In this document: positions 25,748 through 41,521 of the stretch, piece after piece
How the letters are laid out: each line of letters starts with the position of its first letter
How positions within the stretch are numbered: the stretch's first letter is position 1
From: Planctomycetota bacterium
Lineage (GTDB): Bacteria; Planctomycetota; Planctomycetia; Gemmatales; Gemmataceae
NCBI GenBank assembly: GCA_016191165.1
Contig: JACPPF010000066.1
Span: 1-41,609 of the forward strand
Direction of reading: 5' to 3'
Length of the DNA stretch: 41,609 bases
Notes under the pieces: model-generated
Seen by the model: the letters and a program-made list of their open reading frames with translations, nothing else
Told to the model about the DNA's origin: nothing
Databases searched by the model: none
Program-made: the position numbers and the translations under genes

Positions 25748-26647
25748 ATGAAAGAGATTATTCAATCCCCGGAGCAAATGCGTGCCTGTTTCGCGCGGCT
25801 GCGCACCGGCGCGGCCCGGCTGGCCGCTTTGCCGCTCGATGGGCTGCTGGGGCGATTGGCGCGCTTGAGCGAGCGCTGGCAGCCGGGGAGCGCAGCCTTT
25901 CAGCAGGCCAGTCAAATGCTTTCGGGCCTGTTCGGACCTTACACCGTTGAGGCGGCGCTAACCGGACTGGCGATGTCGTTGCACGCCCCCATCCTGCGCG
26001 CCGAATTGGCACACGAACTCGGGCGGGCGGACCTTCTTGACACCTGGCAAGCCGACGAGCACGGCATCGGCTGGGCCCGCGGCTATCCGCTCGGCGTCGT
26101 TGCCCAGGTGCTGGCCGGCAATGTGTTCCTCGGCGGCGTCATCGCCCTGGCACAGGCATTGCTCACGCGCAACGCGGTTTTGCTCAAGCTCAGCAGTGAG
26201 GACAGCGGCTTCACCGAGTTGTTCACGCAAACCTTGCTCGAGGCTGACCATGACGGCCTGCTGCGCGACGCCGTTGCCGTCTGCTCATGGTCCAGCGCGC
26301 AGGACGATGCCAACCAGGTTCTGCGCGACGAGGGGGATGCCATCGTCGTCTGGGGTGGGGAGGCAGCCATCAGCGCGTATCCCGCGGACCGTTGCCGGGG
26401 ACGGGTCATTCACTACGGGCCACGCCTCGGAATCGGCTTCGTTCTGGCCGGCGTCGATCTTGCAGAGACGGCCCGCAATTTGGCATGGGATGTGGCTTTA
26501 TGGGAACAGCGAGCGTGCAGCTCGCCTCGGTTGTTGTTCGTGGAGGATACTGCCGAACTGCCGCGCCGGGTTGCCGACGAGTTGAGCAAGTCCCTCAGGG
26601 CTGTGCGCGACCGGTTGCCAGCGCGGCCGTTGACGCTGGATGATTAG
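25748..26647 (+). CDS. LuxC-family acyl-CoA reductase, prematurely stopped
   Basis: A 299-residue frame covering roughly the first two thirds of a LuxC-type acyl-CoA reductase, which reduces an enzyme-bound acyl group to an aldehyde with NADPH. Visible motifs are 'GYPLGVVAQVLAGNVFLGGV', 'VVWGGEAAISAYP', 'RVIHYGPRLGIGFVLAGVDL' and 'LWEQRACSSPRLLFVE', where Cys257 is the expected acyl-carrying cysteine. The frame ends at TAG (26645-26647), but the same frame continues beyond it with clear LuxC sequence, so this is a nonsense-interrupted gene rather than a natural end. It follows the luxE-like gene by 43 bases, as in fatty-acid-reductase operons. Possible explanations are a real mutation or a sequencing error. 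Confidence 0.82.
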   Translation: MKEIIQSPEQMRACFARLRTGAARLAALPLDGLLGRLARLSERWQPGSAAFQQASQMLSGLFGPYTVEAALTGLAMSLHAPILRAELAHELGRADLLDTWQADEHGIGWARGYPLGVVAQVLAGNVFLGGVIALAQALLTRNAVLLKLSSEDSGFTELFTQTLLEADHDGLLRDAVAVCSWSSAQDDANQVLRDEGDAIVVWGGEAAISAYPADRCRGRVIHYGPRLGIGFVLAGVDLAETARNLAWDVALWEQRACSSPRLLFVEDTAELPRRVADELSKSLRAVRDRLPARPLTLDD

Positions 26648-27016
26648 GCGGAGGTGCTGGCGATCCGTGAACTGGGGTACTGGAGGGATCATGCGAGCCT
26701 ATTCGCTTCAGCCGGTTCGATGGATCACACGATTCTGCTGACTGACGACGCGCCGGCCGATGTGCCCCTCGGCTATCGCACGATCTGCGTGATTCCGATT
26801 CGCGCTCTGGATGCCCTTCGTGAACTCCTGGCGCCCTTCCGTGCGGGCCTTCAGACGGGCGTGTTGGCCGCGCCGGCGGACCGCTGGCCGATGGCAGTCG
26901 ATATGCTGGCGCGAGCGGGTTTGACGCAAATCGCCGCCGCGGGATCAGCCGCCGCGCGGTTCCTTGGATTGCCTCATGAGGGGGAAAACGCCCTGCGTCG
27001 CCTGGTGCGGTTGGCC
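26648..27016 (+). pseudogene. C-terminal part of the broken luxC-like gene
   Basis: This is the in-frame continuation of the luxC-like gene after the TAG. It reads 'AEVLAIRELGYWRDHASLF', 'VPLGYRTICVIPIRALDAL', 'LQTGVLAAPADRWPMAVDML' and 'LPHEGENALRRLVRLA', which follows the usual LuxC order up to a few residues short of the natural end. After about 27016 the homology stops and the frame runs on into DNA that is antisense to the DUF1549/DUF1553 gene. The last 70 bases overlap the 3' end of that gene. An independent start at 26654 is formally possible but lacks a ribosome-binding site. Confidence 0.75.
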
Positions 27017-29245
27017 GTTGGTGATCAGCTTGGCGAGATTCGGATAGCCCATGAGGTGCAGGTAGTTCGTATGATCGGCGCCGCGGCAACGGTCCATCGG
27101 CTCCTTTCGGCCGAAGAGGCGCACCATCGCTTCCTCGCGTTCCTTCCAGAAATCGTTCTCATTCACGTAGGCACTCAGCGATTGCAGGTCCACGACCTCG
27201 ATCGCACGGGTGCCGGCCGGGGCGTTCTCCAGTTTCAAGGCGCCGCCGGTGGCGTCGTTAATCATGTCGAGTTCGACGCGGCCGGAAACGCGCATCGGCT
27301 CTCGGCTCGCAAAAAGCGCAGGGTCGACGCGCGGTGAAGTGAATGGATCAAACGCTAGTTGATACGTGCGCGAGTTCAAGATAGTGCGTTCGAGCCGGCG
27401 CAAATCAAAGCCGCCGGCAATGAAATCCTTCGCCAGCAGGTCGAGCAACACAGGATGGCTGGGGGGATTGGCGTCGGAGAAGCTGTCGAACGGTTCGACC
27501 AGGCCGCGGCCGAAATAGTAGGCCCAGGTGCGGTTGACGATATTGCGGGCGAAGAACGGATTCTCGCGGGCCACGAGCCAGCGCACGAAATCGTGGCGTG
27601 GGTCGACGGATTTGGCGAGGTCCAGCCCGCTCGTGATCGGCGCCGGCCCTCGCGTCAGATTCGCGATTCGATCACCGAGGTGGATTTCCTTGAGCGCTAC
27701 CTGCCAAAGATCCAGTTGATGGCGATCACGAATTGCTTGAGCCGATTCCGGCGTGAGGCCCTTCACGCCGAGTTCGGCCTCCAGTTCTTTCTGGCGGCGA
27801 CTGCGCTCCGCTCTCGCCAACGCGGCGGTTTCAGGATGGTTGCCGTGGCGAACTTGTCGGAAAATGTCCGTGAACGCTTGATGATCCGCCGGCGTCCACG
27901 GCCCCAGAGGATGCTTGTGACAGCGGGCGCAGTCCACGCGAATGCCGAGAAAGGCGCTAGCGATGCGCTCCGCCGGATCGTGATAATTGTCGAATGAGCG
28001 CCAGAACAGATCGAGCGTGCGGCGTTTCGCATAGTCGCTGCCCAAACCGTGTCTCCCTCGCTTGACCAGGTTCTGAGCATCGCGAATCCAGGCGTCCGGC
28101 GATTTTCCCTCTCGCGTGTCCGCACCGATGATGCCCTCGACCACTTGATCGAACGGCACATTCTTGTCGAAGCGCTGCCGCAGCCAGTCGAACCAAAGCT
28201 GTCGCCAGCCGCGCAGCCGATAGTGGAAGGGCGCCTCGCCGTCGGTCGAATTACCGGTCCACATCAACCACTTGTTGGCCCAGATTGCCGAATGACGTGG
28301 ATGCGCCAGCAGCTCATCGATCTTGCGGGCACGCTTGTCCGGCGTCTTGCTGGCGCCGAAACTTCGTAGCTCCTCTGGCGTCGGCAGCGAGCCGATGACA
28401 TCGACGTAGACGCGGCGCAGGAATTCGGTGTCGCTGGTCAGATCGGCGGGCACGAGGTTCAGCTCGCGCAACAGGGCGAAGATGTGCAGATCGATGTAGT
28501 TCACCTCCGGAATCTTCGGATAATCCGCGCGCGGCGGATAAGCAACGGCGATCGGCACAGGTGTGACGTTGCCGCGATAGACCACGAGAACGGTGTCGAG
28601 GCCACGACCCACGCTCGTCACCTCGCCTTGCTTGTTGACGCGGATTACTTTTTCTCCAGGATGACGGAAGTCGCAGAAGGAGGTCATGTCGTGCCGGGAC
28701 CCATCCGCGAAACGGACGAAGACCTTCAGAGCACGTGATTCGTCTGGACCGGGGAAAACGATTCGCGCCGGCTCAACTTCGATGCGGACGATCTTGCCGC
28801 TCCCCGGTTGCCAGGGCGCGCCGGCCGCGATCCACTGGCGCAGGACTTCGTATTCCCACGAACCGAGATCGAGTCGCTTTCCGCCCGCGTGCCCAGTTCC
28901 TGCGAGTGGACGCTGCAACAGCAAGCTCTGCTCCGGTGCGGAAAAGTTAAGCAACCGACCACGCGAAGTGCGCGTCAGGACTTTGTGGTCGCGTTCGGGA
29001 GATTCGGCAATCAGACTGAGGACGAAGCTCCCCTTTCCGCGCGAGGAGCCATGACAGCCGCCGGCGTTGCAGCCCTGGCGATCCAGCAGCGCGTGAACGT
29101 GGCGTTCAAAGTCGATCGCGGCGAGAACCTGGCCGTTCGGCAGGCGGGCCGGTTGCGCCGGAAGCGGCGCCGTGAAAACGAGCACGCTGAGGCCGGCAAG
29201 GACAACAACCAGGTAACGGGACATCGCAGATGGCGATGTAGCCAT
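26945..29245 (-). CDS. DUF1549/DUF1553 protein, truncated C-terminus
   Basis: A 766-residue exported protein. The ATG at 29245 has GGAGG 8 bases upstream. A signal peptide occupies the first 30 residues. 'LLDRQGCNAGGCHG' is the degenerate haem-like motif found in this family. Then come a bacterial Ig-like stretch ('VFVRFADGSRHDMTSFCDF', 'VTSVGRGLDTVLVVYRG'), DUF1549 ('FLRRVYVDVIGSLPTPEELR', 'VDCARCHKHPLGPWTPADH' with CxxCH) and DUF1553 ('RWLVARENPFFARNIVNRTW', 'RRLERTILNSRTYQL'). The paralogue at 37691-40189 continues about 75 residues further; here homology ends near 'NLAKLITNG' and the last 22 residues are antisense of luxC. Minus-strand neighbours upstream are a propeller and an LRR gene. 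Confidence 0.88.
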   Translation of the reverse strand: MATSPSAMSRYLVVVLAGLSVLVFTAPLPAQPARLPNGQVLAAIDFERHVHALLDRQGCNAGGCHGSSRGKGSFVLSLIAESPERDHKVLTRTSRGRLLNFSAPEQSLLLQRPLAGTGHAGGKRLDLGSWEYEVLRQWIAAGAPWQPGSGKIVRIEVEPARIVFPGPDESRALKVFVRFADGSRHDMTSFCDFRHPGEKVIRVNKQGEVTSVGRGLDTVLVVYRGNVTPVPIAVAYPPRADYPKIPEVNYIDLHIFALLRELNLVPADLTSDTEFLRRVYVDVIGSLPTPEELRSFGASKTPDKRARKIDELLAHPRHSAIWANKWLMWTGNSTDGEAPFHYRLRGWRQLWFDWLRQRFDKNVPFDQVVEGIIGADTREGKSPDAWIRDAQNLVKRGRHGLGSDYAKRRTLDLFWRSFDNYHDPAERIASAFLGIRVDCARCHKHPLGPWTPADHQAFTDIFRQVRHGNHPETAALARAERSRRQKELEAELGVKGLTPESAQAIRDRHQLDLWQVALKEIHLGDRIANLTRGPAPITSGLDLAKSVDPRHDFVRWLVARENPFFARNIVNRTWAYYFGRGLVEPFDSFSDANPPSHPVLLDLLAKDFIAGGFDLRRLERTILNSRTYQLAFDPFTSPRVDPALFASREPMRVSGRVELDMINDATGGALKLENAPAGTRAIEVVDLQSLSAYVNENDFWKEREEAMVRLFGRKEPMDRCRGADHTNYLHLMGYPNLAKLITNGQPHQATQGVFPLMRQSKEPRGG

Positions 29246-29332
29246 TTTCGCGTCCTCCAACTGATTCCCAATCACTCGCAGGGTACCCCAATTAGGCCGG
29301 GATTTGTAATTCGATAAATTCGATATTCGTAA

Positions 29333-30958
29333 TCACGGTTGCAAACGCTTAAACACGATCAAACAGCTCGCAATCCACAACCCGACAGGGAGTCCCACAA
29401 CCCACCGCAGCGGCGGCCGGCCCGGCACATCCCAAATGGCAACGTGATCTTGGTGGAATGTCACAAGCGTGCTGCCATCATCGCTGAGCAAAGGCGCCTC
29501 GGTGTGTCTGGTGTATTCCAAATGCACCAGTTCCTGGGCGGTCTCCATGTCGAAAACGGTGACCAGATCCCAGTCCCGATGTTCCGCGGGCAGAGGGCGC
29601 AGGCGCACCCATGCCAGCGCTTCATCGATCCAGTTCGGCTTGCTCCTCGTATTGCCTATTTCCCGGTAAACGAGGCGCCGCTTGTCGGGAGTGACATCAT
29701 GATTGGTCGTAGCGCCGGCTGCAGCCTCCGGCGCACGCGCGTCAGCGCGAACTCGGCCTGTCGTGGGATCGAGGAACCGGATACGGTTTTCCGCGTAGAC
29801 CGCCAGCGCGTTGCCGCTCGGGCTGAAGGTTGGATGCGTGCTCATGGAGTCGCGATACCAGATTTGTTCCCAGGCGATACCCTTGCGATTCAAGTCAAAA
29901 AGCGCGAGCTTTACGCGCTCCTCCTGGTTCTTCCAGCGCTTGCCGGTCCAAACTCCTCCCGTCATGAACATCGTGGAGATGGCGAAATGCGACCCGTCGG
30001 GCGTCCAGGCGCCGCCATAGACCGTGCCCAAATCAGGCGACTCGGCAATTCGTTGGCCGTTTTGCACATTCCAGAACTCGACGATCCCCGGTTGCTCGCC
30101 GCCGCCATCCCACGTCGCGAGCCACTTGCTGTCAGCGGAAAAAGCGTTGCCACTGAATCGATGCCAACCCGTCTTGGCGGCGAGTTTGGCACGCGGCGTT
30201 TTTCTGGGCGGATCAAAATCCCAAAGGTTGAAGATATGGAAATACCTATCATCGGTTTCAAGGTAACTTGCTTGAGCTGTCAGAAGCGATTTGCCATCGG
30301 GACTGATGCTCACGAACATGTTGTCTGGATCCAGAACGACTTCCCGCCGGCGCGTGCGCGTATTCCAAAACCCAACGCTTGACGTCTTCTTGTCGCTGGC
30401 CGGGTAAGCGAGATAGGCCCCGCCCGCGGTGAATCCCCAGAAAGGATCCTGATTATCTTCTTCGCCGCTCAAGCGATCCAGCAACCGGCCGCTGGCGGTC
30501 TCAATCAACACGATGTCGCCGCCCCTGTCTTGAACGGCCAGGATTTCGCTGTCCAGCGAGAACAGGAAACGATTTGCCCCAAGCCATGGCGCCGGCAGAA
30601 CCACGGCCCAGGTACGTCCGGTTTGGAAATCGCCGAAGAACAGCTTCATCGGCTCAGATTCCCAAACCATGAGCTTGTTGTCAGCAGAGAATCGCGGCCA
30701 ACCTGTCGCGAAATGGACACCCTCAGGTAACGCGAAGAGTCCGTTGCCGCTGTGCGTATCCCAAAGCCACGGCGAGTCCGGAAGAGCGAGTCTCCCGCCG
30801 TCCGGGGACAGCCAACCCCACGGGTGTTTGCCGACGAAGGTGACGCGTGGCTCATGCGGGAACACGTTCCAGAGCAAAACTGTAATGGCCCCCATGACCA
30901 GCGCCAGCACCAACCACGCAAGGATCTTCCGCCTGCTTGTTAGTGATTTGTGTGGCAT
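29333..30958 (-). CDS. membrane-anchored WD40-like beta-propeller protein
   Basis: A 541-residue protein. The start at 30958 is supported by GGGGGA about 6 bases upstream. Residues about 12-33 ('ILAWLVLALVMGAITVLLW') form a membrane segment, and a second one lies at the C-terminus ('LRWVVGLPVGLWIASCLIVF'). Between them are propeller-like repeats such as 'GWLSPDGGRLALPDSPWLWD', 'FVSISPDGKSLLTAQ', 'NAFSADSKWLATWDGG', 'GGAWTPDGSHFAIST' and 'PTFSPSGNALAVYAENRIRF', each with the S-P-D-G turn of WD40-type blades. Topology with both ends in the membrane is unusual. It sits between the LRR gene (50 bases upstream) and the truncated DUF1549 gene (87 bases downstream), all on the minus strand. Confidence 0.82.
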   Translation of the reverse strand: MPHKSLTSRRKILAWLVLALVMGAITVLLWNVFPHEPRVTFVGKHPWGWLSPDGGRLALPDSPWLWDTHSGNGLFALPEGVHFATGWPRFSADNKLMVWESEPMKLFFGDFQTGRTWAVVLPAPWLGANRFLFSLDSEILAVQDRGGDIVLIETASGRLLDRLSGEEDNQDPFWGFTAGGAYLAYPASDKKTSSVGFWNTRTRRREVVLDPDNMFVSISPDGKSLLTAQASYLETDDRYFHIFNLWDFDPPRKTPRAKLAAKTGWHRFSGNAFSADSKWLATWDGGGEQPGIVEFWNVQNGQRIAESPDLGTVYGGAWTPDGSHFAISTMFMTGGVWTGKRWKNQEERVKLALFDLNRKGIAWEQIWYRDSMSTHPTFSPSGNALAVYAENRIRFLDPTTGRVRADARAPEAAAGATTNHDVTPDKRRLVYREIGNTRSKPNWIDEALAWVRLRPLPAEHRDWDLVTVFDMETAQELVHLEYTRHTEAPLLSDDGSTLVTFHQDHVAIWDVPGRPPLRWVVGLPVGLWIASCLIVFKRLQP

Positions 30959-31007
30959 CGTGTTCCCCCAGTCGAGAAAATAGAGACGATCGGCGTCGGC
31001 CGCACAT

Positions 31008-32219
31008 CTATCTATATCTTTTAGGTAGATGGTAATTGGCAAACGGTGGATTCGGGCGTGCGATGAGGCACTCCGGAAGCGAATCTTGGCCGAGGGCCGT
31101 CCATTGTTCAGGGCTGATACGGGCTTTTCCCGTTGTATAGAGCACCCGCAGAGCTTTCATGCTTGCCAGCGTCGGCAGCGAGGCTGCCGTGATTCGATCG
31201 CTGTCAAGCTCTAGCCATTGAAGCTTTGACAACCGAGCGAGGTGCGTTAGATCCTCGTCGGTGATGGCCACGGTTTGCAATACGAGTTTTTCCAGGTGCT
31301 TTCGTTGTGCCAGCGAGCGTATCGTCTCGCTTGACATGGGCCGATTCACCTGAAGTGAGCGCAGCTCAGCCAAGCCTTCGAGGGCAATCGGCTCTTTTGA
31401 CACCATCGTGAGGCGGAGGTGTTCGAGTTTCTGGCATTTGCCCAGCGCACGCACGCTTTCCTCATTCATCGGCACGAAAACGATTTCCAGAGCGCGCAGC
31501 TCGGTGAGATTTCCAAGCACTGTCAGCCCGCCAGGAGTTGTCGATTTCAAGTAGAGCAGACTCAACTCGCGCAGCTGCGAGAACTTGGCGATTTGCGCAA
31601 GGCCTGCATCGGTGAGTTTGCCGCTCTTCATCAGGCTCAGGTTTCTGAGTTGCTTGAGGTTGCCGAGATGCGCGACCCCTTTGTCCGTGACCGGCGACGT
31701 ATCCTGTGACAGGTGAAGTTCCTGAAGTTGCACCAGTTTGCCGCAATGCTCGAGGACGCGATCCGTTACCAGACCGTGTTCCCGAACGGAGAGGCTCGTC
31801 AAATACGACAACTTGGCAAGAGTCTCGAATGCGTCGGCGCGGATCGCGTTGCCGTTCAGGTTGAGCCTGCGTAGTTTCTTCAGGCCGACAAGGTGTCGAA
31901 GGCCATCGCCGGTGAACGCATTTCCTTCGAGATCAAGCTCCTCCAGCGCATCGAGTTTCCCGATCGATTCGAGAACGCGATCGGTAAAACCGAAACCGAT
32001 GGCGTGAAGGGTTCGCAGCTTTGGCACCTGGGAAAGCAGTTGCTGGAATGTTGCGTCCCCGAGTTGATGGGGGCCGAAGCGAAGAGGGCCCCGAAGGAAG
32101 AGTTGCTCCGGCGTATTGGGCAACCCCTTGAGATTGGCCGACTCCGGTATTGACACCTGGGCGTGCGTCGAGCTTGCCACGAAAGCGAGGGTGACGACAG
32201 CGAATAGGTAACCGCGCAT
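31008..32219 (-). CDS. secreted leucine-rich-repeat protein
   Basis: A 403-residue protein. The ATG at 32219 opens a signal peptide ('MRGYLFAVVTLAFVASSTHA'). From about residue 60 there are roughly a dozen leucine-rich repeats of the 23-26-residue type common in planctomycetes, e.g. 'LDALEELDLEGNAFTGDGLR', 'LKKLRRLNLNGNAI', 'LVQLQELHLSQDTSPVTDKG', 'LKQLRNLSLMKSGKLTDAGL' and 'LSKLQWLELDSDRIT'. These form a curved solenoid for protein-protein contact. There is no further domain. It is divergent from the sigma-WD40 gene across 210 bases and leads a minus-strand group with the membrane propeller and the DUF1549 gene. Confidence 0.88.
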   Translation of the reverse strand: MRGYLFAVVTLAFVASSTHAQVSIPESANLKGLPNTPEQLFLRGPLRFGPHQLGDATFQQLLSQVPKLRTLHAIGFGFTDRVLESIGKLDALEELDLEGNAFTGDGLRHLVGLKKLRRLNLNGNAIRADAFETLAKLSYLTSLSVREHGLVTDRVLEHCGKLVQLQELHLSQDTSPVTDKGVAHLGNLKQLRNLSLMKSGKLTDAGLAQIAKFSQLRELSLLYLKSTTPGGLTVLGNLTELRALEIVFVPMNEESVRALGKCQKLEHLRLTMVSKEPIALEGLAELRSLQVNRPMSSETIRSLAQRKHLEKLVLQTVAITDEDLTHLARLSKLQWLELDSDRITAASLPTLASMKALRVLYTTGKARISPEQWTALGQDSLPECLIARPNPPFANYHLPKRYR

Positions 32220-32429
32220 TGCAGGGATCCTCAGGTGGGGGACGGCGCGGGTTCGTTGATCGTATCGTTGGTCCGAAGCCAGACAATTAACAATAGTACC
32301 CTGAGGCACGCTCTATAGTCTGCGCCCTTCGGAAAAAGTTGCCACGATTTTCTTGCTATCCCACAGACTTTTCGGGCCCGGTCCGGGTACTATGGAGCTG
32401 ATTGATCCCCACCGGACGCGAGTTTCTCC

Positions 32430-34382
32430 ATGGGCGCGGGACGACTGGTCGCCATCCTGCGCCGGGTTCTGCTGGTTGCGGAACGGCAGGCGCAAGGGCA
32501 AGGCGATCGGCAACTTTCGGATCGCTTCGTCGCAAAGAAGGACGAAGCCGCCTTTGCCGCTCTGGTGAAACGGCACGGCCGGCTCGTCTTCGGCGTGTGC
32601 CGATCGGTGCTTAACAACGAGCACGACGCCGAGGATGCATTTCAAGCGACGTTCCTCGTCCCGGCCCGAATGGCCGGCTCGATTTGCAAGCGTGATTCTC
32701 TTCCGAGTTGGCTCTACGGAGTCGCCCTGCGCACGGCAATGAAGTCACGACGAGCCATGAACACACGCCGCCGACATGAGCGCGAGGCGCCTCCGCAGAC
32801 GCCGACGCCGCCCGTCACCGAAGCGGCCGAGCGGGAGTTGGAGGCGATCCTCTGCGAAGAGATCGGCCGGTTGCCGGAGAGATACCGCGCCCCGTTTGTG
32901 CTCTGCGTGTTGCAGGGCAAGAGCCGTGCGGACGCGGCGCAGGAGTTGGGCTGGAAAGAGGGGACCGTGTCGAGCCGCATCGCCAGGGCGCGCGCACTGC
33001 TTGAAGCGAGTCTGACGCGCCGCGGCGTCGCCGTGCCCGCACTCGTGGTGGCGGCCACCCTTGCGCCAACCGTCGCTTTCGCGGCCGTGCCGGTCGGATT
33101 ATTTATGCGCGTGGCCAGCGCCGCGGCGCCGTTCGCGGCCGGGAAGGCGTGCGAATCCGTCACGGTCGCGGCGATCGCTCTGGCGGAAAGCGTCATCCGG
33201 ACGATGTTCGTGGCAAAAGCGAAAACGATGGCGGGACTTGTCGTCCTTCTGATGCTGCTGGTGACCGGCGGGGGCTTGTTGGCCTACGCCGCTTTGGCGA
33301 CGGACGACCGCGCTGCTGCGATTGCCGGTCCGGTGCAGGCGGTGGAGAAGAACAAGGAGACTCCCGTCAGCATCCCCCTCCGTCCGGAGCGACATCCGAA
33401 TCCTCCTTCCAGGCCGACACTCCTCCGACAGATGAACACCTTCTCGATCGCCCGCAGCGATCAACTCAATGCGTTCGGGTCCCACGAAGTCGTTCCGGTG
33501 GCCTTCTCGCCCGATAGCAAGCGATTGGCCTTTGGCGAGTATCGCCGAGTCGAAAAAGTCGGCTTTGTGCACACGCTGCACCTTCAGGACATCGACACCG
33601 GCAAGGACCTGGGGACGCGCGAGGGGAGCTTCAGCGCGGCGGCATTCTCTCCGAATCAAGATGTCCTGGCTGTGGGCCACGGGCAGCATGTTCACCTCTT
33701 GAACGCCGACACGGGCAAACTGATCCGTACCTTGACGATTCAAAAAGAGAAGTTCCTTGTCGAACTCGAAAAGCTCTTTGCCGAACACGAACGGCCGCGT
33801 GACGAGTTGTTCGGGCGCCGCTTCCTAAGTTTCCGCTCGCTCGCTTTCTCCAATGACGGGAAATCGCTGGCCGTGATCAGCCAGGACAGCGGAAACTTCC
33901 AGCTCCGCCCAACCCAATCCGAGGAGATGCAACTGGCGCCGCAGTTCGATCTCTTCGAAGTCGCGACCGGCAAGGAACTGTGCCAGACGCGCGGCGCCGG
34001 TGGTTCGGTCTACCGCCTTGTCGGCTTCACCAGGGACGGGAAAATCCTGGCTTTCGAGAATCAGCGCCAGCAACAAATCGACCGCCTTGTTGACCTGCGC
34101 ACGGGCGCGCAGCTCTTCTCCGTCGGGCTGCACGATCGGCACGTTTTAGCCGCCGCCGTGTCTCCCGATGGAAAAAGGTGTGTCTGGGCCAGCTCTGCGT
34201 CCGGCGATGCGCGAATGAATATCTGGGACCTCGTGCACCAGAAGGAAATCAGCCCCCCAAAGAGCAAACTCGCAATGTCGGCCACTTCGTGTTTTCGCGC
34301 GACGGCTCCTTTTTCATCGCCATGTCCGCCGGCGGCATCAAGATGTGGGATACCGCTACCGGAGCGGAGTTGCGCCGCTTAA
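32430..34382 (+). CDS. ECF sigma factor fused to membrane helix and WD40 propeller (frameshifted)
   Basis: A 650-residue frame. Residues about 35-85 are sigma-70 region 2 ('DEAAFAALVKRHGRLVFGV', 'NEHDAEDAFQATFLV'), and about 148-200 region 4 ('LPERYRAPFVLCVLQGKSR', 'GWKEGTVSSRIARAR'), as in ECF sigma factors of planctomycetes. A membrane segment follows at about 267-289 ('MAGLVVLLMLLVTGGGLLAY'). Residues from about 330 are WD40-like: 'PVAFSPDSKRLAFG', 'AAAFSPNQDVLAVGHGQHVH', 'AAAVSPDGKRCVWA'. After residue 609 the frame goes wrong at a run of six C (34253-34258), giving 41 nonsense residues. The correct continuation lies in another frame to 34663. Restoring one base gives a 744-residue protein. 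Such proteins may sense a signal outside the membrane and release the sigma part; that is inference. Confidence 0.82.
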   Translation: MGAGRLVAILRRVLLVAERQAQGQGDRQLSDRFVAKKDEAAFAALVKRHGRLVFGVCRSVLNNEHDAEDAFQATFLVPARMAGSICKRDSLPSWLYGVALRTAMKSRRAMNTRRRHEREAPPQTPTPPVTEAAERELEAILCEEIGRLPERYRAPFVLCVLQGKSRADAAQELGWKEGTVSSRIARARALLEASLTRRGVAVPALVVAATLAPTVAFAAVPVGLFMRVASAAAPFAAGKACESVTVAAIALAESVIRTMFVAKAKTMAGLVVLLMLLVTGGGLLAYAALATDDRAAAIAGPVQAVEKNKETPVSIPLRPERHPNPPSRPTLLRQMNTFSIARSDQLNAFGSHEVVPVAFSPDSKRLAFGEYRRVEKVGFVHTLHLQDIDTGKDLGTREGSFSAAAFSPNQDVLAVGHGQHVHLLNADTGKLIRTLTIQKEKFLVELEKLFAEHERPRDELFGRRFLSFRSLAFSNDGKSLAVISQDSGNFQLRPTQSEEMQLAPQFDLFEVATGKELCQTRGAGGSVYRLVGFTRDGKILAFENQRQQQIDRLVDLRTGAQLFSVGLHDRHVLAAAVSPDGKRCVWASSASGDARMNIWDLVHQKEISPPKSKLAMSATSCFRATAPFSSPCPPAASRCGIPLPERSCAA

Positions 34383-34663
34383 TCGGTCCCGAACAGTACG
34401 TCGGATGCCTCGCATTGTCACAGGATGGCAAGTTGCTGGCGACCGGCGGCCCGGATGGGACCGTCTTCCTGTGGGACGTGCGCAGCGGGAAGTTTCGAGA
34501 ACAACTGCTGAAGGACAAGGGCTGGATTCGATCGGTGTGCTTCTCGCCCGACGGTAGAACCCTGGTCGCGGGTCGGCAGAATCCCAATCCGGATGGGCAA
34601 GGGAGCCCCGACCACGCGATTGTCTGGAGCATCGACCCGGAATGGCTTGAGGAAAAGCGATGA
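34253..34663 (+). pseudogene. displaced C-terminal WD40 part of the sigma-WD40 gene
   Basis: From the C run at 34253 onward the reading frame with WD40 homology is shifted by one base relative to the upstream part. It reads 'EQTRNVGHFVFSRDGSFFIA', 'GGIKMWDTATGAELRRLIG', 'ALSQDGKLLATGGPDGTVFL' and 'SVCFSPDGRTLVAG', ending 'DPEWLEEKR'. Its TGA at 34661-34663 overlaps the ATG of the next gene as ATGA, the typical coupling of adjacent operon genes. This shows that the longer frame was the working one. A single missing C is the simplest cause. Confidence 0.8.
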
Positions 34664-36078
34664 GATATTCTCGACGCCAATTCGCCACGTTTTCTTCGAC
34701 CGGCTTCCTTTTCTTTCTGGGGGCTGTTTCGGGTCTGGAGGATCGCGATGCTGCGATTGTCGACCCAATGCCGGAACCAATGATCACCAAAGAGGCCTCG
34801 ATCACTCTTCCCGTCCATCTTGAGCATCATTGGAAGGAGCCGGCCAAGCCGACGCTTCTCCGACAGATGAGCGCCTTCCCGATCACCCGCGCCGATCAAC
34901 TCAACGCGGTCGGGTCGCAAGATTCCGTCCCGGTGGTCTTCTCCCCCGACAGCAAGCGATTGGTCTGCCGAGAATTTCAATGGGACAAGAAAGGCGGCTC
35001 TGCGCGACGAATACTCCACGTGCAGGAAGCCCATTCAGGCAAGGACTTGTGGACCCGCGGGGGGGATTTCCAGGCGGCGGCGTTCTCTCCCACGCAAAAC
35101 ATCCTGGCCGTCGGCTATGCGCAGCACGTTCATCTCCTGAACGCCGACACGGGCGCTGTGATCCGCAACTTGACGATTCCAGAACCCGCTCTCGAACGCC
35201 GCGACCTACGGGTTCCCCACGCTGAAAATGTTCGGCCCGACCTCCACTCGCTGGCTTTTTCGGACGACGGCGCATCCTTGGCGGTGATCAGTCGAGACGT
35301 GGACGTTTTTTTCGGTAGGCGGGAGCCGGACGAGGCATACATGCCGCAGTTCGACCTTTTCCAAGTAGGTACCGGCAAACACTTACCACAAAGGCGCGGC
35401 GCCGGTGAATTGGTCCAGCGCCACACCGGTGGCCGTGTCTACCGTTTCGTCGGCTTCGCCAAGGATGGGAAAATCCTCGCCTTTGAGGTCGATCAGTACC
35501 AGCAGATTGTACACCTGGTGGACTTGAAAACGGGCAAGCGGCTATTTTTCAATGCCAACCAGGGTCTCGGTGTCCGTACCGCGGCCGTGTCGCCCGACGG
35601 CAGAATGTGCGTCTGGGGCGGCACCAAGATCGATGACTACCGCATGAGGCATTGGGACCTCGTGAAACAGAAGATGGTCAACGAGCACAAGGTCACGCGC
35701 GGCAGCGTCAACAAACTGGCGTTCTCCCGTGCCGGCGACTTCTTCATTTCCCTCAGCGGGGATGGCATCAAGATGTGGGACACGGCCACCGGCGCTGAGT
35801 TGCGGCACTTCAGCGGGCCGGAGCAACGTGTCGAGTGCATGGCCTTGTCGCCGGACGGAAAATTGCTCCTGACCGGCGGTCTGGATGGGACCGTCTTCTT
35901 GTGGGACGTGCCCACCGGCAAGTTCCGCGCGCAATTGCAGAAGGAAAAGGGCTTTATTCGATCGGTGTGTTTTTCTCCGGACGGTACGATTCTGGTCGCG
36001 GGCCGGGAAAATGCACACGATCGCGGACAAGCGGGTTCTGAAGCGACGGTTTGGCGTATTCCTTGCCCTGGCGATTAG
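34660..36078 (+). CDS. secreted WD40 propeller, tandem paralogue of the sigma-WD40 propeller
   Basis: A 472-residue protein whose ATG overlaps the stop of the restored upstream frame (ATGA). Its N-terminus 'MRYSRRQFATFSSTGFLFFL' is a Tat-like or Sec signal with a twin-arginine-like SRRQF. From about residue 60 it matches the propeller of the sigma fusion almost block for block: 'KPTLLRQMSAFPITRADQLN', 'QHVHLLNADTGAVIRNLTI', 'GDGIKMWDTATGAELRHFSG' and 'DGTVFLWDVPTGKF'. It lacks the sigma and membrane parts. It therefore looks like a duplicated copy that has acquired an export signal. The next gene overlaps its 3' end. Confidence 0.85.
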   Translation: MRYSRRQFATFSSTGFLFFLGAVSGLEDRDAAIVDPMPEPMITKEASITLPVHLEHHWKEPAKPTLLRQMSAFPITRADQLNAVGSQDSVPVVFSPDSKRLVCREFQWDKKGGSARRILHVQEAHSGKDLWTRGGDFQAAAFSPTQNILAVGYAQHVHLLNADTGAVIRNLTIPEPALERRDLRVPHAENVRPDLHSLAFSDDGASLAVISRDVDVFFGRREPDEAYMPQFDLFQVGTGKHLPQRRGAGELVQRHTGGRVYRFVGFAKDGKILAFEVDQYQQIVHLVDLKTGKRLFFNANQGLGVRTAAVSPDGRMCVWGGTKIDDYRMRHWDLVKQKMVNEHKVTRGSVNKLAFSRAGDFFISLSGDGIKMWDTATGAELRHFSGPEQRVECMALSPDGKLLLTGGLDGTVFLWDVPTGKFRAQLQKEKGFIRSVCFSPDGTILVAGRENAHDRGQAGSEATVWRIPCPGD

Positions 36079-37633
36079 TCCATCGAGAAAGGATACAAAG
36101 ATCACGGATGCGGGGCTTAAGATCGATGACGCCTTGCTTGGCCCTTGGGTCGTCGCGTCGATCACAACAGCAATTGACGAGTCTCATTGGTTGTCGCGCG
36201 TCGACTCGATCCGTGCCAGCAAACCGACAACGTTTCGGTCCGTCACGGTGCCGAGCTCGTTCCTCGTGGAGTGTACGGACGGCAGAACGCTGACCGTTGA
36301 ATTTCAGTTGGCGCCCTCGGCCAAGCCGAAAGGGATCGACCTGGTTCTAGACCTACAAGGCAAACCGCAGATCTACCGAGGAATCTATGAAATCGCCGGC
36401 GACACGCTCAAGCTGTGCGTCAGCCTGCCTGAGAAGGACCGGCCCACGGAGTTTTCCGCGAACGCCGGCACAAAGCGCGTCCTGCTGACCTTGCGACGAC
36501 CCCCCGGCCTGAAAGCGGATGAACCGAAAACTGAAAAAACCGGCGCCGGTGGCAATTCCACCAAATCTGGGCCCGCCGTCGCGCGCTGGGAGGAGATCAT
36601 CCGACTCGAGGGTCACAAGAGCCCGGTACGGTGGATGGGCTGCTCCCCGGATGCGACCCTTCTGGCCACCGGCGAGGCCGACGGCCGCGTTTACGTCTGG
36701 GATGTCGCCAAGGCCAAGAAGATCCGGTCGCTGGACTCCGAGCCGATCCGGTTCGTGGCGTTCACGCCGGACGGCAAGCAATTGGTGACGGCCGGCCCGG
36801 GCAGAGGACACGCCCTCCAGGTGCGGCTGCGGGATCCAGTCACCGGCAACCCGCAGGCTCAACTCGGCGCCGGCGGCGACTTCGTCGCCTTGGTGGCCCT
36901 CTCCCCCGACGGCAAGCTGATGGTGACCAGCAGTTCGGAGAAAAGCGTCCAGGCCTTTGCCCTCGACGGTACCTCGCTCAAACGAATCTGGTCCGCCAAC
37001 CTCGGCTTTCGGGTCACCGGCATCGCGATCTCGCCGGATGGTCAACGCATCGCGGTGGTTGGCGGCGGAGCCAGCGTCTTCGATCACTCCGGCCCGGCCG
37101 ATCACCCCATTCCCGACCGGATGCAGTTGCTCGATACCCTGGGCGAGCTTCGGTTACTGGACGCTGCCACTGGGAAGGCAGTTTTCTCAATCAAGAACCC
37201 GATCGGGCTCATGGCTTTCCGCAAGGGTGCTGCTGGGGCGATCGCGACCGTGGCGTTTTCGCCGGACGGCAAATTGCTGGCCAGCAGCAACGGCGCGGAC
37301 GGGACGCTGTGGCTGCACGACGCCCAGACGGGAAAGGACGTGCGCGAGTTGAAAGGCCACGCCGATTGCGTCACCTCGTTGGCATTCTCGCCGGACGGTA
37401 AGCTCCTGGCTTCATGCGGCGCGGACTACAAGGTCCGGATCTGGGACCCGGCGACAGGCCAGGAACGCGCGGCTTTGCCGCTTGCCTCGCCGGCGAACGT
37501 GCTTTTCTCTCCCGACAATCAATTCTTGGCGGCCTCCGGCGGCGGCGTCGTGCGCCTGTGGAGAGAGCGCCAAGCCAGGGATATGCCGCCGATGCCCGCG
37601 CAAATAGAACCAAAAAAGGACGCAGCCAAGTGA
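36011..37633 (+). CDS. TIGR03067-WD40 fusion protein
   Basis: A 540-residue protein. The ATG at 36011 overlaps the upstream gene by 68 bases; no better start with homology is available, so the start is uncertain. A weak hydrophobic segment ('RRFGVFLALAISPS', about 13-26) may be a signal. Residues about 38-165 match TIGR03067: 'ALLGPWVVASITTAID', 'GIYEIAGDTLKLCVSLPEKD' and 'RPTEFSANAGTKRVLLTLRR'. After a linker rich in Thr and Gly (166-190) comes a WD40 propeller: 'IRLEGHKSPVRWMGCSPDAT', 'FVAFTPDGKQLVTAG', 'ATVAFSPDGKLLASS', 'ELKGHADCVTSLAFSPDGKL' and 'VRIWDPATGQERAAL'. It ends the WD40 operon and lies 57 bases before the full-length DUF1549/1553 gene. Confidence 0.8.
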   Translation: MHTIADKRVLKRRFGVFLALAISPSRKDTKITDAGLKIDDALLGPWVVASITTAIDESHWLSRVDSIRASKPTTFRSVTVPSSFLVECTDGRTLTVEFQLAPSAKPKGIDLVLDLQGKPQIYRGIYEIAGDTLKLCVSLPEKDRPTEFSANAGTKRVLLTLRRPPGLKADEPKTEKTGAGGNSTKSGPAVARWEEIIRLEGHKSPVRWMGCSPDATLLATGEADGRVYVWDVAKAKKIRSLDSEPIRFVAFTPDGKQLVTAGPGRGHALQVRLRDPVTGNPQAQLGAGGDFVALVALSPDGKLMVTSSSEKSVQAFALDGTSLKRIWSANLGFRVTGIAISPDGQRIAVVGGGASVFDHSGPADHPIPDRMQLLDTLGELRLLDAATGKAVFSIKNPIGLMAFRKGAAGAIATVAFSPDGKLLASSNGADGTLWLHDAQTGKDVRELKGHADCVTSLAFSPDGKLLASCGADYKVRIWDPATGQERAALPLASPANVLFSPDNQFLAASGGGVVRLWRERQARDMPPMPAQIEPKKDAAK

Positions 37634-37690
37634 CCAGGTAAACGGCCCTGGACAACCGGCAGACCTGCGATGAAGCAACAAGGGGGGAAA

Positions 37691-40189
37691 ATGAGATCCA
37701 CAACTACGTTCATGGCCGTTGCGTGGCTGGCATTCCACGCCGGAAGCGGCGCGGCGGGACCAATCCGCTTGCCCGATGGCCGCAACCTGGAGCGCATCGA
37801 TTTCGAACGGCATGTCCATGCGCTGCTCGATCGGCAGGGGTGCAACGCCGGTAAATGCCACGGCAATCGCGACGGCAAGGGGGGATTCTCGCTCAGCTTG
37901 TTTGCAGCGTCGCCGGAGAGCGATTTTCTCGAAATCGCGCGCCGCACGAACGGCCGGCACGTCAACAGCGCCGATCCGGATCGCAGCCTGCTCTTGCTGA
38001 AGGCAACGGGAGATCTGCAGCACGGCGGAGACATCCGTGTCACGCCCGGCTCATGGGAATACGCGGTGCTGCGCGAGTGGATCGCTCAGGGCGCCCGCCG
38101 CGACGCGGGGCGCGGACAAATCAAGAGCGTCCAGGTCATTCCCCGCGACCATATCTTCCAGATCAACGATCAGGTGAATCTGAAAGTGATCGCTGAATTC
38201 GCCGATGGCGCCAAAGAGGACGTGACGCCTTTCTGCGACTTCCGCGTGCCCCCCAAGGAGGACAAGAAAGCGATCGACCCGGTGCGCGTTAGCCGGACCG
38301 GCACCGTCGTCGCCGTCAAGCCGGGCGATGTAAGCATCTCCGTCGTGTATCGCGGCCAGGTCCGCACCATGCGCGCTCGCGTCGCCGTGCCCGTTGCGAA
38401 GGACTTCGCCTATCCCAAGGTTCCCGAGGTGAATTTCATCGATCGCGAGATCTTCGGGCAACTCCGCCGCCTCAACATCGTGCCGTCGGACCTTTGCAGC
38501 GATGAGCTGTTTTTGCGCCGCGTCACCATCGATCTCATCGGCACGATTCCCACGCCCGCGGAGGTGCGCGCTTTCCTCTCCAGCAAGGATGCGGACAAAC
38601 GGACCAAAAAAATCGACGAGCTGCTCGCGCATCACCTGCACGCAGCCCTTCTGGCGACCCGTTTCTGCGAAATGACCGACCTGATCGGCGTCTCCTACGG
38701 CGCGAAATTGCCGCGCAACAAGGCGACGCAGATGGCGCACGGGTGGTTTCGTAAACGCCTACACGAGAATATGCCCTACGACCAGATCGTGGCCGGCGTC
38801 CTGACCGCGACGAGCCGGGAGGGGCGTGCGATGGATGATTGGCGGAAAGAAAAAGCAGCGCTCGAAAAATCGGATACTGGCTTCGACAGCGATTACGCCA
38901 AGCGCGCGACCCTCGACATTTACTGGCGCGACGGCGGCGTGGTGCGGCCGAAAGACCCGCTCTTCGGATTCCGGGCCGGAATGCGCAGGCCGACCGAAGC
39001 AGTGGACGCGATTTTCCTGGAAGAAATCGCCGAGCGCACGGCGTCCGCGTTCCTCGGCGTGAATCTGGAGTGCGCCCGTTGCCATGTTCATCCACTCGAA
39101 GGCTGGACTCCCGTGGATCATCGGGCGTTCACCAACGTCTTCGGCCAGGTGCGGCTGGAGAAAGTCGCGCACAAATTTGGCACGCTGGAGAAGTGGGAGC
39201 AGGCGGCGTTCGCACGTCAGGTATTCCTCGGCGAGGCGCCCCTGCAACTGAACCAACTCGATCATCATGACCGGACGTTCCTCGCCGCAGTGTCAAGTAA
39301 TGGGATCGCCGATGCCAGCGCCGGCGTCGTGCTGAGGCCGCGTTTGTTGGGCGGGCCCGAGGTGAATTTCCGGAACGACGCACGCCAGACGCTGGTGCGC
39401 TGGCTCATCGACCCGGAGAATCCCTTCTTCGCACGCCATTTCGTCAACATGATCTGGCAGCACTACTTCGGAATTGGCCTCGCCGATTCGACCGAGAGCT
39501 TCACCTCGGCTCATCGCTCGGGCAATCATCCGCTGCTCGACCAGCTCGCCAATGAGTTTATTCAGAGCAAATTCGACATTCGTCGCCTGGAACGGACGAT
39601 CCTCTTGTCGCGTAGCTACCAGCTCTCCAGCGTCCCGAATGAGACCAACAAGCACGACCGCACGAATTTCGCGCGCACGGTGCCGCGCCGCCATGGCGCG
39701 CGCGTGCTCACGGAAATCCTGCACGCACTCCTGGAAACCCGCGAAGATTACGGCCCCGGCGTTCCCGTCGGCATCCACGCCCAGGAAATCGCGCACGTGG
39801 CCAGCGCCTTTTACCGCGAGGGCTACGACAACGACTATCGCAAACGAATCCTTCACATGGTGCACCAGTTCGGCCGCGGCGACCTCGTCGCGCGCTGCGA
39901 CAGTGAGCCGGACCTTCGCTCCTACCGAATGCTCTATGGAAGCGATCACGTCCAGCCCGTCATCGAGAGGAGCAAACGCATCGAGCGACTCCGGAAGTCC
40001 GCGGAGCAGCAATTCGATGCGATCCTGGACGAGGTGTTCCTCGCCGCGCTGAGCCGATTGCCGACGCCGGAAATCCGCAAGGCTGCGACCGAGCACCTCA
40101 AGCGTGATTGGCCGAAGGATCGGCAGCGTGTGGTGGAGAATCTATTCTGGTGGCTGATGAACACGGGCGAATTCCAGGCTCGTCACTGA
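37691..40189 (+). CDS. DUF1549/DUF1553 protein, full length
   Basis: An 832-residue exported protein. AGGGGGG ends 4 bases before the ATG at 37691, so it is preferred over the ATG seven codons upstream. After a signal peptide comes 'LLDRQGCNAGKCHG', the Cys-x4-CysHis motif that may bind haem or be structural. The middle holds a bacterial-Ig-like stretch ('VIAEFADGAKEDVTPFCDF', then 'VAVKPGDVSISVVYRGQVRT'), DUF1549 ('LFLRRVTIDLIGTIPTPAEV', and 'LECARCHVHPLEGWTPVDH' with CxxCH) and DUF1553 ('RWLIDPENPFFARHFVNMIW', 'NETNKHDRTNFARTVPRRHG'). The end reads 'DEVFLAALSRLPTPEIRKAA' and 'VENLFWWLMNTGEFQARH', complete for the family. It is a paralogue of the minus-strand gene at 26945-29245. Confidence 0.92.
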   Translation: MRSTTTFMAVAWLAFHAGSGAAGPIRLPDGRNLERIDFERHVHALLDRQGCNAGKCHGNRDGKGGFSLSLFAASPESDFLEIARRTNGRHVNSADPDRSLLLLKATGDLQHGGDIRVTPGSWEYAVLREWIAQGARRDAGRGQIKSVQVIPRDHIFQINDQVNLKVIAEFADGAKEDVTPFCDFRVPPKEDKKAIDPVRVSRTGTVVAVKPGDVSISVVYRGQVRTMRARVAVPVAKDFAYPKVPEVNFIDREIFGQLRRLNIVPSDLCSDELFLRRVTIDLIGTIPTPAEVRAFLSSKDADKRTKKIDELLAHHLHAALLATRFCEMTDLIGVSYGAKLPRNKATQMAHGWFRKRLHENMPYDQIVAGVLTATSREGRAMDDWRKEKAALEKSDTGFDSDYAKRATLDIYWRDGGVVRPKDPLFGFRAGMRRPTEAVDAIFLEEIAERTASAFLGVNLECARCHVHPLEGWTPVDHRAFTNVFGQVRLEKVAHKFGTLEKWEQAAFARQVFLGEAPLQLNQLDHHDRTFLAAVSSNGIADASAGVVLRPRLLGGPEVNFRNDARQTLVRWLIDPENPFFARHFVNMIWQHYFGIGLADSTESFTSAHRSGNHPLLDQLANEFIQSKFDIRRLERTILLSRSYQLSSVPNETNKHDRTNFARTVPRRHGARVLTEILHALLETREDYGPGVPVGIHAQEIAHVASAFYREGYDNDYRKRILHMVHQFGRGDLVARCDSEPDLRSYRMLYGSDHVQPVIERSKRIERLRKSAEQQFDAILDEVFLAALSRLPTPEIRKAATEHLKRDWPKDRQRVVENLFWWLMNTGEFQARH

Positions 40190-40208: not shown

Positions 40209-41258
40209 ATGTCGCGAACGGTACTCGTTTCGATCCTGTTGCTCGTGAGCACCGGCGCGGCCCGCGCCCAGCCGATGCTTATGACCGTTGAAACCGTGGA
40301 CTGGATGGCAGCCGACAGCCAGGTGGTGGTTCGGGCGATCGTCCTCGATGTTGCTCAGGAGGTGGAGCCAGATGGGGACAGAAAGAAGTGGAACACCGTC
40401 GTTCTCAAGGTGCGCGAAACGCTCAAAGGCAAGCATCAGCCGTTTCACACCTATGTCGTTCCGGACTGGAACCACGAAGAGATCATGACCTGGCAGAAGA
40501 CCGAGCAGGAGTTGCTGGTTTTCCTGGCCGACACCAAGCTGCCGGACAAGTCTCCATGGACGGGGCACGAAAGGGCCGTCCACTTTATGTGGAACGCAAA
40601 GGCCAAGATCCACCCGCTGACCTTGCGCAACGACCGCGGCGTGGTCGAGCTGAAGGATCCGGTCAGCCACGCGAAACGCTCGTACTTTTCAGAAGTCTAC
40701 ACGGTGGAGATGCCGAAGGCGAAGGAGCCGCAGAAGCTCGTTCAGGCCGTGCGCGACGCCATCGCGGCTGCCGAGCCGGTCAAGGAGCTGCGCGCGCACC
40801 GCGTGGAATGGCCGGAGCGATTCTTCACGCGCATCGTTCCCGTGAACGCCAATCTCGAACGCCATGCCCGCCGCTGGATTACTTCCGACAACGACAAGCT
40901 GCGCGAGCAAGGCGCCATTGCGCTGAAGTACTTCAAATCCGAAGCGAACATCGCGGCGCTCTGGAAACTGCTGAGCGATGCCGCCACCTCGGCAGACGTA
41001 ACCTGGAAAGATGGCCGCGTGATCGAAAGGCACGACGTCTATTACGTCCGGCAGGCCGCGTTCGCCTCGCTCAAAGTGCTGGGGGTCGAGGTGCGCAAGC
41101 CGATCTTGAAGGAAGGTGAAGATCAGACGGCCATTGCCATTTCGTTTGCCAGATTCCAGGCCTGCTGCTTGAGCCGGGCACCGGAGCCGAACCAGATGGA
41201 ATCGAGCCGCCGACTTGCCCTGTCGGCGTCATTGGCTCCCCGTGAGGTGCGGACGTGA
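40209..41258 (+). CDS. secreted protein of unknown function, possibly fused at its end
   Basis: A 349-residue protein starting 19 bases after the DUF1549/1553 gene with GGGGG 5 bases before the ATG. Residues 1-21 form a signal peptide ending ARAQ. The N-terminal half has a beta-rich stretch: 'ADSQVVVRAIVLDVAQEVE', 'NTVVLKVRETLKGKHQ', 'QELLVFLADTKLPD'. The second half has alpha-helical repeats like HEAT units ('NDKLREQGAIALKYFKSEAN', 'YYVRQAAFASLKVLGVEV'). About the last 45 residues ('TAIAISFARFQACCLSRAPE' onward) are antisense to a DUF932 remnant and probably do not belong to the original protein. I do not recognise the family. Confidence 0.75.
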   Translation: MSRTVLVSILLLVSTGAARAQPMLMTVETVDWMAADSQVVVRAIVLDVAQEVEPDGDRKKWNTVVLKVRETLKGKHQPFHTYVVPDWNHEEIMTWQKTEQELLVFLADTKLPDKSPWTGHERAVHFMWNAKAKIHPLTLRNDRGVVELKDPVSHAKRSYFSEVYTVEMPKAKEPQKLVQAVRDAIAAAEPVKELRAHRVEWPERFFTRIVPVNANLERHARRWITSDNDKLREQGAIALKYFKSEANIAALWKLLSDAATSADVTWKDGRVIERHDVYYVRQAAFASLKVLGVEVRKPILKEGEDQTAIAISFARFQACCLSRAPEPNQMESSRRLALSASLAPREVRT

Positions 41259-41467
41259 TCGACGAACTCTGTCACGGCGTTGAAAGCGACCCAGGACGAA
41301 CGCTTGATGGACGGCTCATCGTGGCCAATGCCTTCCTCGAACAGCCGATAAAGTTCCTGCCGGACATTGACCGCACGTGTGTTGTCCTTGCCTTCTCCGG
41401 GATCGGGATAGATTTCCTTGAAGTAGGCTGACAACTGAGAGTCTATCCGGGAAGTAGCAGATGTCAT
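41123..41467 (-). pseudogene. C-terminal remnant of a DUF932 (phage/plasmid-like) protein
   Basis: A 114-residue frame matching the end of DUF932/TIGR03299-type phage- and plasmid-borne proteins: 'LSAYFKEIYPDP', 'SSWVAFNAVTEFVDHVRTSR', 'DADRASRRLDSIWFGSGARL' and 'KQQAWNLANEMA'. Full-length family members have some 200 further residues at the N-terminus, absent here. Upstream on the same strand is the end of a different gene, whose TGA (41522-41524) is in this same frame. The remnant overlaps the 3' end of the plus-strand gene at 40209-41258. It is most likely a decayed mobile-element cargo gene. Confidence 0.65.
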
Positions 41468-41521
41468 AAACGCCGATTTCCGCAGAGCGTAATTCGATGA
41501 CAATTTTACGCGGCGGCGGCT

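Follow-up and report, generated by a model that had tools for sequence, protein, structure and literature searches.

A stretch of planctomycete DNA from a member of the Gemmataceae (contig JACPPF010000066.1, positions 1 to 41,609, hereafter the window) carries a gene in which an ECF sigma factor, a membrane segment and a propeller follow one another, and directly behind it a second gene that repeats the propeller with an export-type N-terminus and no sigma factor; a third gene, in which another propeller is joined to a TIGR03067 domain, completes the set (genes 1 to 3, 32430-37633, all on the forward strand). The order of the domains, membership of a large sigma family as judged by features, the duplication and the selection acting on both copies are all directly shown. 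The overall reading, that this is an ECF57-like anchored sigma whose sensor has been duplicated in tandem and whose exported twin tunes the switch, is one that we hold with about even confidence.

The sigma factor of gene 1 (32430..33017, forward strand) consists of region 2 at residues ~25-117 and region 4 at residues ~141-196, which are matched by Pfam Sigma70_r2 (34.5 bits) and Sigma70_r4_2 (51.5 bits), both above cut-off, as well as by TIGR02937 of NCBIfam, also above cut-off, and a profile of this part of the protein matches solved ECF sigma factors. Regions 2 and 4 are present without a large region 3, the arrangement by which an ECF sigma is recognised. There is a cysteine in each region, Cys57 in sigma2 and Cys159 in sigma4, and equivalents of both are found in 56 of the 61 homologues that were fetched. 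The ECF57 group of the Planctomycetes has been described as having WD40-like C-terminal extensions and a cysteine pair across sigma2 and sigma4, with regulation via protein interaction proposed (PMC8999054), and it would seem that Cys57 and Cys159 are this pair. Furthermore, ECF sigmas with WD40 repeats are counted amongst the planctomycete innovations in a paper on the Tuwongella proteome (PMC8567305). Gene 1 resembles ECF57 in having sigma2 and sigma4 with a cysteine in each, a WD40-like C-terminal extension and a family expansion of planctomycete type: residues 1-297, which include the membrane segment, have matches at E<=1e-30 in 35 of 59 genomes (its own included), with up to 36 strong matches per genome and open frames of widely varying length behind them, and the source genome holds 45 matches to sigma region 2. 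By these features, rather than by the published profile, gene 1 fits as an unremarkable member of a very large family of planctomycete type, one that agrees with ECF57. It differs from that group in being trailed by an exported, sigma-less copy of its own sensor and in having an extension whose frame is broken in the assembly.

Behind sigma4 there is a cytoplasmic segment that the alignment of homologues reveals to be conserved in the family (residues 197-262, 33018..33215, forward strand), the mean top-residue frequency over 60 homologues being 0.48, as against 0.14 for the sensor, and this segment is a candidate for a built-in regulatory element. The membrane segment follows at residues 267-285 (33228..33284, forward strand; Kyte-Doolittle 2.33 over 19 residues); the best hydrophobic segment is at the same place across the 61 homologues, reaching a Kyte-Doolittle value of at least 1.6 in 58 of them. 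The external propeller then begins, and its frame-0 part can be followed over 33302..34252 (forward strand) by WD40/PD40 matches and by alignment to gene 2. The sequence of sigma factor, membrane helix and propeller that the initial annotation had given to gene 1 is borne out by the Pfam matches, the segment at residues 267-285 and the WD40/PD40 matches, and the topology it had suggested, with a cytoplasmic sigma, one membrane segment and an external propeller, is supported as a prediction.

AlphaFold, applied to the frame-0 protein, places the helices of sigma2 and sigma4 at high pLDDT, and the best PDB matches to this model are ECF sigmas bound to anti-sigma factors, with SigW-RsiW first and CnrH-CnrY also listed, which agrees weakly with a closed resting state of the sigma. 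No anti-sigma family was found in gene 1 among the Pfam matches or the listed NCBIfam matches. A further comparison among known systems is IutY of Pseudomonas putida (ECF243), where a sigma is fused to a membrane anti-sigma and is freed by Prc and RseP (PMC8999054). Gene 1 is like IutY in holding a sigma and a membrane-anchored external part in one chain with the helix between them, whereas its external part is a propeller, an anti-sigma domain is not matched and a TonB-dependent transducer is not recognised beside it.

Gene 2 (34660..36078, forward strand) has the N-terminus MRYSRRQFATFSSTGFLFFLGAVSG (MRYSRRQF...), in which inspection and hydropathy reveal an S/T-R-R-x-F motif and then a hydrophobic stretch, so that a Tat-like export signal is predicted by inspection; a propeller follows, and there is no sigma. 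The propellers of genes 1 and 2 have ~55% amino acid identity over 456 codons, and at the level of DNA gene 1 from 33302 to near its end is 66.5% identical over 1314 columns to 34737-36012. Judged on these alignments the likeness is not due to chance and gene 2 is a real tandem duplicate of nearly all of gene 1 that lies behind the membrane helix, in keeping with the original proposal that an export-type N-terminus has taken the place of the sigma and the helix. Upstream of the frame break described below the two copies have 51% amino acid identity and a dN/dS of 0.40, downstream of it 64-67% (67% over gene 2 residues 349-467) and 0.17, with an overall dN/dS of 0.32 and a dS of ~1.1. These values indicate that the duplication is old, that both copies have been kept under selection and that the frame break is far more recent than that event. 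A single-sequence fold model of gene 2 has a low mean pLDDT of 52.8 and matches WD40 propeller structures such as 5YZV.

As assembled, gene 1 is not one intact open frame and cannot yield a complete propeller. Frame 0 (32430-34382) stops at 34382, and the last propeller blades lie in the -1 frame (34259..34663, forward strand), where the remainder spans 34274-34663, stopping at 34663 in the ATGA that is common to gene 2. The change of frame falls at a run of six C (CCCCCC, 34253..34258, forward strand), where coding potential passes from one frame to the other and across which the alignment of gene 1 with gene 2 runs uninterrupted; in the AlphaFold model confidence is very low at residues 592-650, the site of the out-of-frame tail. 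The set of three propeller genes initially described is therefore present in all its members but without an intact gene 1, and the ATGA overlap of genes 1 and 2 (34660-34663) is found in the -1 frame but not in the sigma-bearing ORF, the first statement of it having tacitly merged two frames.

This break may have arisen in assembly or be a recent lesion of the gene. Were it real, gene 1 could be a fresh pseudogene, with the sigma-sensor pathway lost and only the exported propellers remaining, a possibility that we consider unlikely whilst giving it appreciable weight. Besides the frame change itself, it would be favoured by Pro78 in the region 2.2 helix, which is unique among the 61 aligned sequences (58 of which have Leu and two Met) and could lessen RNA polymerase binding by the sigma, by Met81 where most have Lys or Arg, and by the LuxC (acyl-CoA reductase) gene of the same window (25748-27337, forward strand), which has LuxC matches on both halves and an in-frame TAG near 26645, giving two lesions on one 41-kb contig. 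However, the sigma has 6 deviations at 59 conserved positions, near the mean of 5.0 across 61 proteins, and the part of gene 1 behind the break, with a dN/dS of 0.17, had until recently remained under constraint in the -1 frame; furthermore the source genome is a draft assembly of 183 contigs, in which sequence errors are possible. A plainly dead sigma finds no support overall, given deviations so near the family mean despite Pro78. The DNA-binding residues had been named at the outset as a check on the sigma, and both the DNA-binding and the RNA polymerase-binding parts are largely kept.

The run of C could also be read as the site of a programmed -1 frameshift at C CCC CCA (34253-34259), from which short and full-length anchored propellers would both be made, although we regard this as extremely unlikely. 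The heptamer is of slippery type and its register is the right one, AGAAGGA stands shortly before it and the -1 frame is conserved behind it, but the RNA structure downstream is nothing unusual (z = 0.22), on which ground a stimulating structure is rejected, and no orthologue was found against which conservation of the site could be checked. Searches for other signals at the locus revealed no sigma-70 promoters or terminators beyond chance. Across the upstream regions of 77 sigma genes gapped words did no better than in shuffles, giving no clearly shared promoter motif, and a few 8-mers shared by 7 of the 77 are suggestive only.

Gene 3 (36011..37633, forward strand) joins TIGR03067 to a WD40 propeller, as had been claimed for it, with 41.7 bits against a curated NCBIfam cut-off of 40.15 for a match that covers only positions 40-106 of the 107 in the model, and with the WD40 part recognised by Pfam. 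The mechanical ORF opens upstream at 35885; with the start placed at ATG 36011 the overlap of 68 bases with gene 2 that was first reported holds true. By hydropathy the N-terminal signal of gene 3 is weak. Its propeller has 24% identity to that of gene 1 and is related to the twins only generically.

The 36-base gap that separates gene 3 from the PSCyt2/PSD1 gene downstream raises the possibility that the three genes are neighbours without a joint function and that gene 3 may go with the gene behind it, which we judge improbable. Such a view is in keeping with the shortness of the gap and with a survey of the neighbourhoods of WD40 genes, in which sigma-70 and DUF1501 genes were often found to adjoin them in Planctomycetes (PMC5587647). 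It is hard, however, to call gene 2 unrelated when it copies the sensor of gene 1 itself, and whilst all six congeners have relatives of the downstream PSD1 gene, neither gene 3 nor the trio is present beside those that were examined.

Two PSCyt2/PSD1 (DUF1549/DUF1553) genes, ~40% identical and on opposite strands, flank the region (37670-40189 and 26945-29275). On the reverse strand at 29333-32309, divergent from the sigma gene, lie two further genes with a 35-base overlap, one for a membrane-anchored PD40 propeller and the other for an exported protein of leucine-rich repeats, and as this pair adjoins genes 1-3 there are five repeat proteins side by side. Towards the end of the contig 41148-41506 contains an 80% match to another contig over 290 bases and words of ~37 bases that recur in several other contigs, and a repeat therefore probably ends the assembly here.

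The trio had initially been taken for a conserved module, with gene order in relatives set beforehand as the means of refuting it, and this part of the proposal does not stand; the trio is without synteny in relatives. Queried with the twin-specific part of gene 2, the 396 other genomes of the class, six congeners among them, yielded no close relative of its propeller in a search that scored only some candidates per genome; two matches at ~1e-6 are generic. A scan of 84,980 GTDB species by peptide patterns, which miss distant relatives, found no twin propeller either, and in 58 relatives nothing matched gene 3 at E<=1e-30. Viral and phage sets likewise gave no relatives of the propeller, and its origin from a phage or virus is rejected.

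Of the ~98 other loci of this sigma family that were sampled, none carries a sigma-less copy of its own sensor downstream, and the idea that the family habitually duplicates its sensors is rejected. The WD40 type accounts for 17 of the 99 sigma genes sampled (16 apart from the window locus), and a same-strand propeller lies downstream at one of the 13 other such loci that have at least 900 bases behind the sigma gene. In genome G029 one locus (L120) is similar to that in the window, with an anchored sigma-propeller (920-2809) and then, 68 bases further on, a signal-peptide propeller (2877-4085); unlike gene 2, this exported propeller cannot be recognised as a copy of the sensor carried by its own sigma. 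At another locus (L119, 931-5582) the arrangement is a different one: two membrane-anchored sigma genes stand in tandem, and their extensions have one domain in common, with 65% identity.

It would seem very unlikely that sigma-propeller, propeller and TIGR03067-propeller make up a conserved three-part surface-signalling system. The genes are closely spaced, co-directional and overlapping, and the G029 locus has arrived independently at a comparable pairing, but the trio is not conserved in relatives and a downstream propeller is the exception at WD40-type loci with room for one. The duplicated sensor is real and, within the sample, unusual, and the locus is better seen as a local variant of a common kind of switch than as a proven new signalling system. 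As no homologous twin arrangement was found elsewhere in the genomes and loci searched, conservation lends no support to function.

Returning to an anchored sigma with a duplicated sensor, its most likely action can be envisaged as follows. The build of gene 1, from external propeller through helix and conserved cytoplasmic segment to sigma, would suit a switch of one component. The sigma of gene 1 would be kept inactive at the membrane until a ligand or protein of the envelope binds its external propeller; binding would then alter the helix and the conserved segment, or trigger proteolysis, and so release the sigma; a conformational change has been put forward for groups related to it, and proteolysis is the route in IutY (PMC8999054). 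The product of gene 2, with its similar surface, may tune the switch by competing for the ligand or by pairing with the anchored propeller, and a soluble decoy or partner is a plausible role for a duplicated sensor of this kind. The more specific claim, that an anchored sigma is regulated by an exported copy of its sensor lacking the sigma, whether as soluble decoy or as heteromeric partner, and that -1 frameshifting perhaps gives rise to two anchored forms, must be considered doubtful, with a low probability.

Planctomycete-type genomes are rich in anchored sigmas, and for the WD40-type extensions a mode of action has been proposed, although not demonstrated, in review (PMC8999054). A natural copy of the sensor that lacks the sigma marks out the part that has been handled in evolution as a sensor in its own right, and as this copy can be expressed alone it offers a route to the ligand. 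If the copy does tune the switch, it would represent a simple way in which a soluble regulator can evolve from a receptor.
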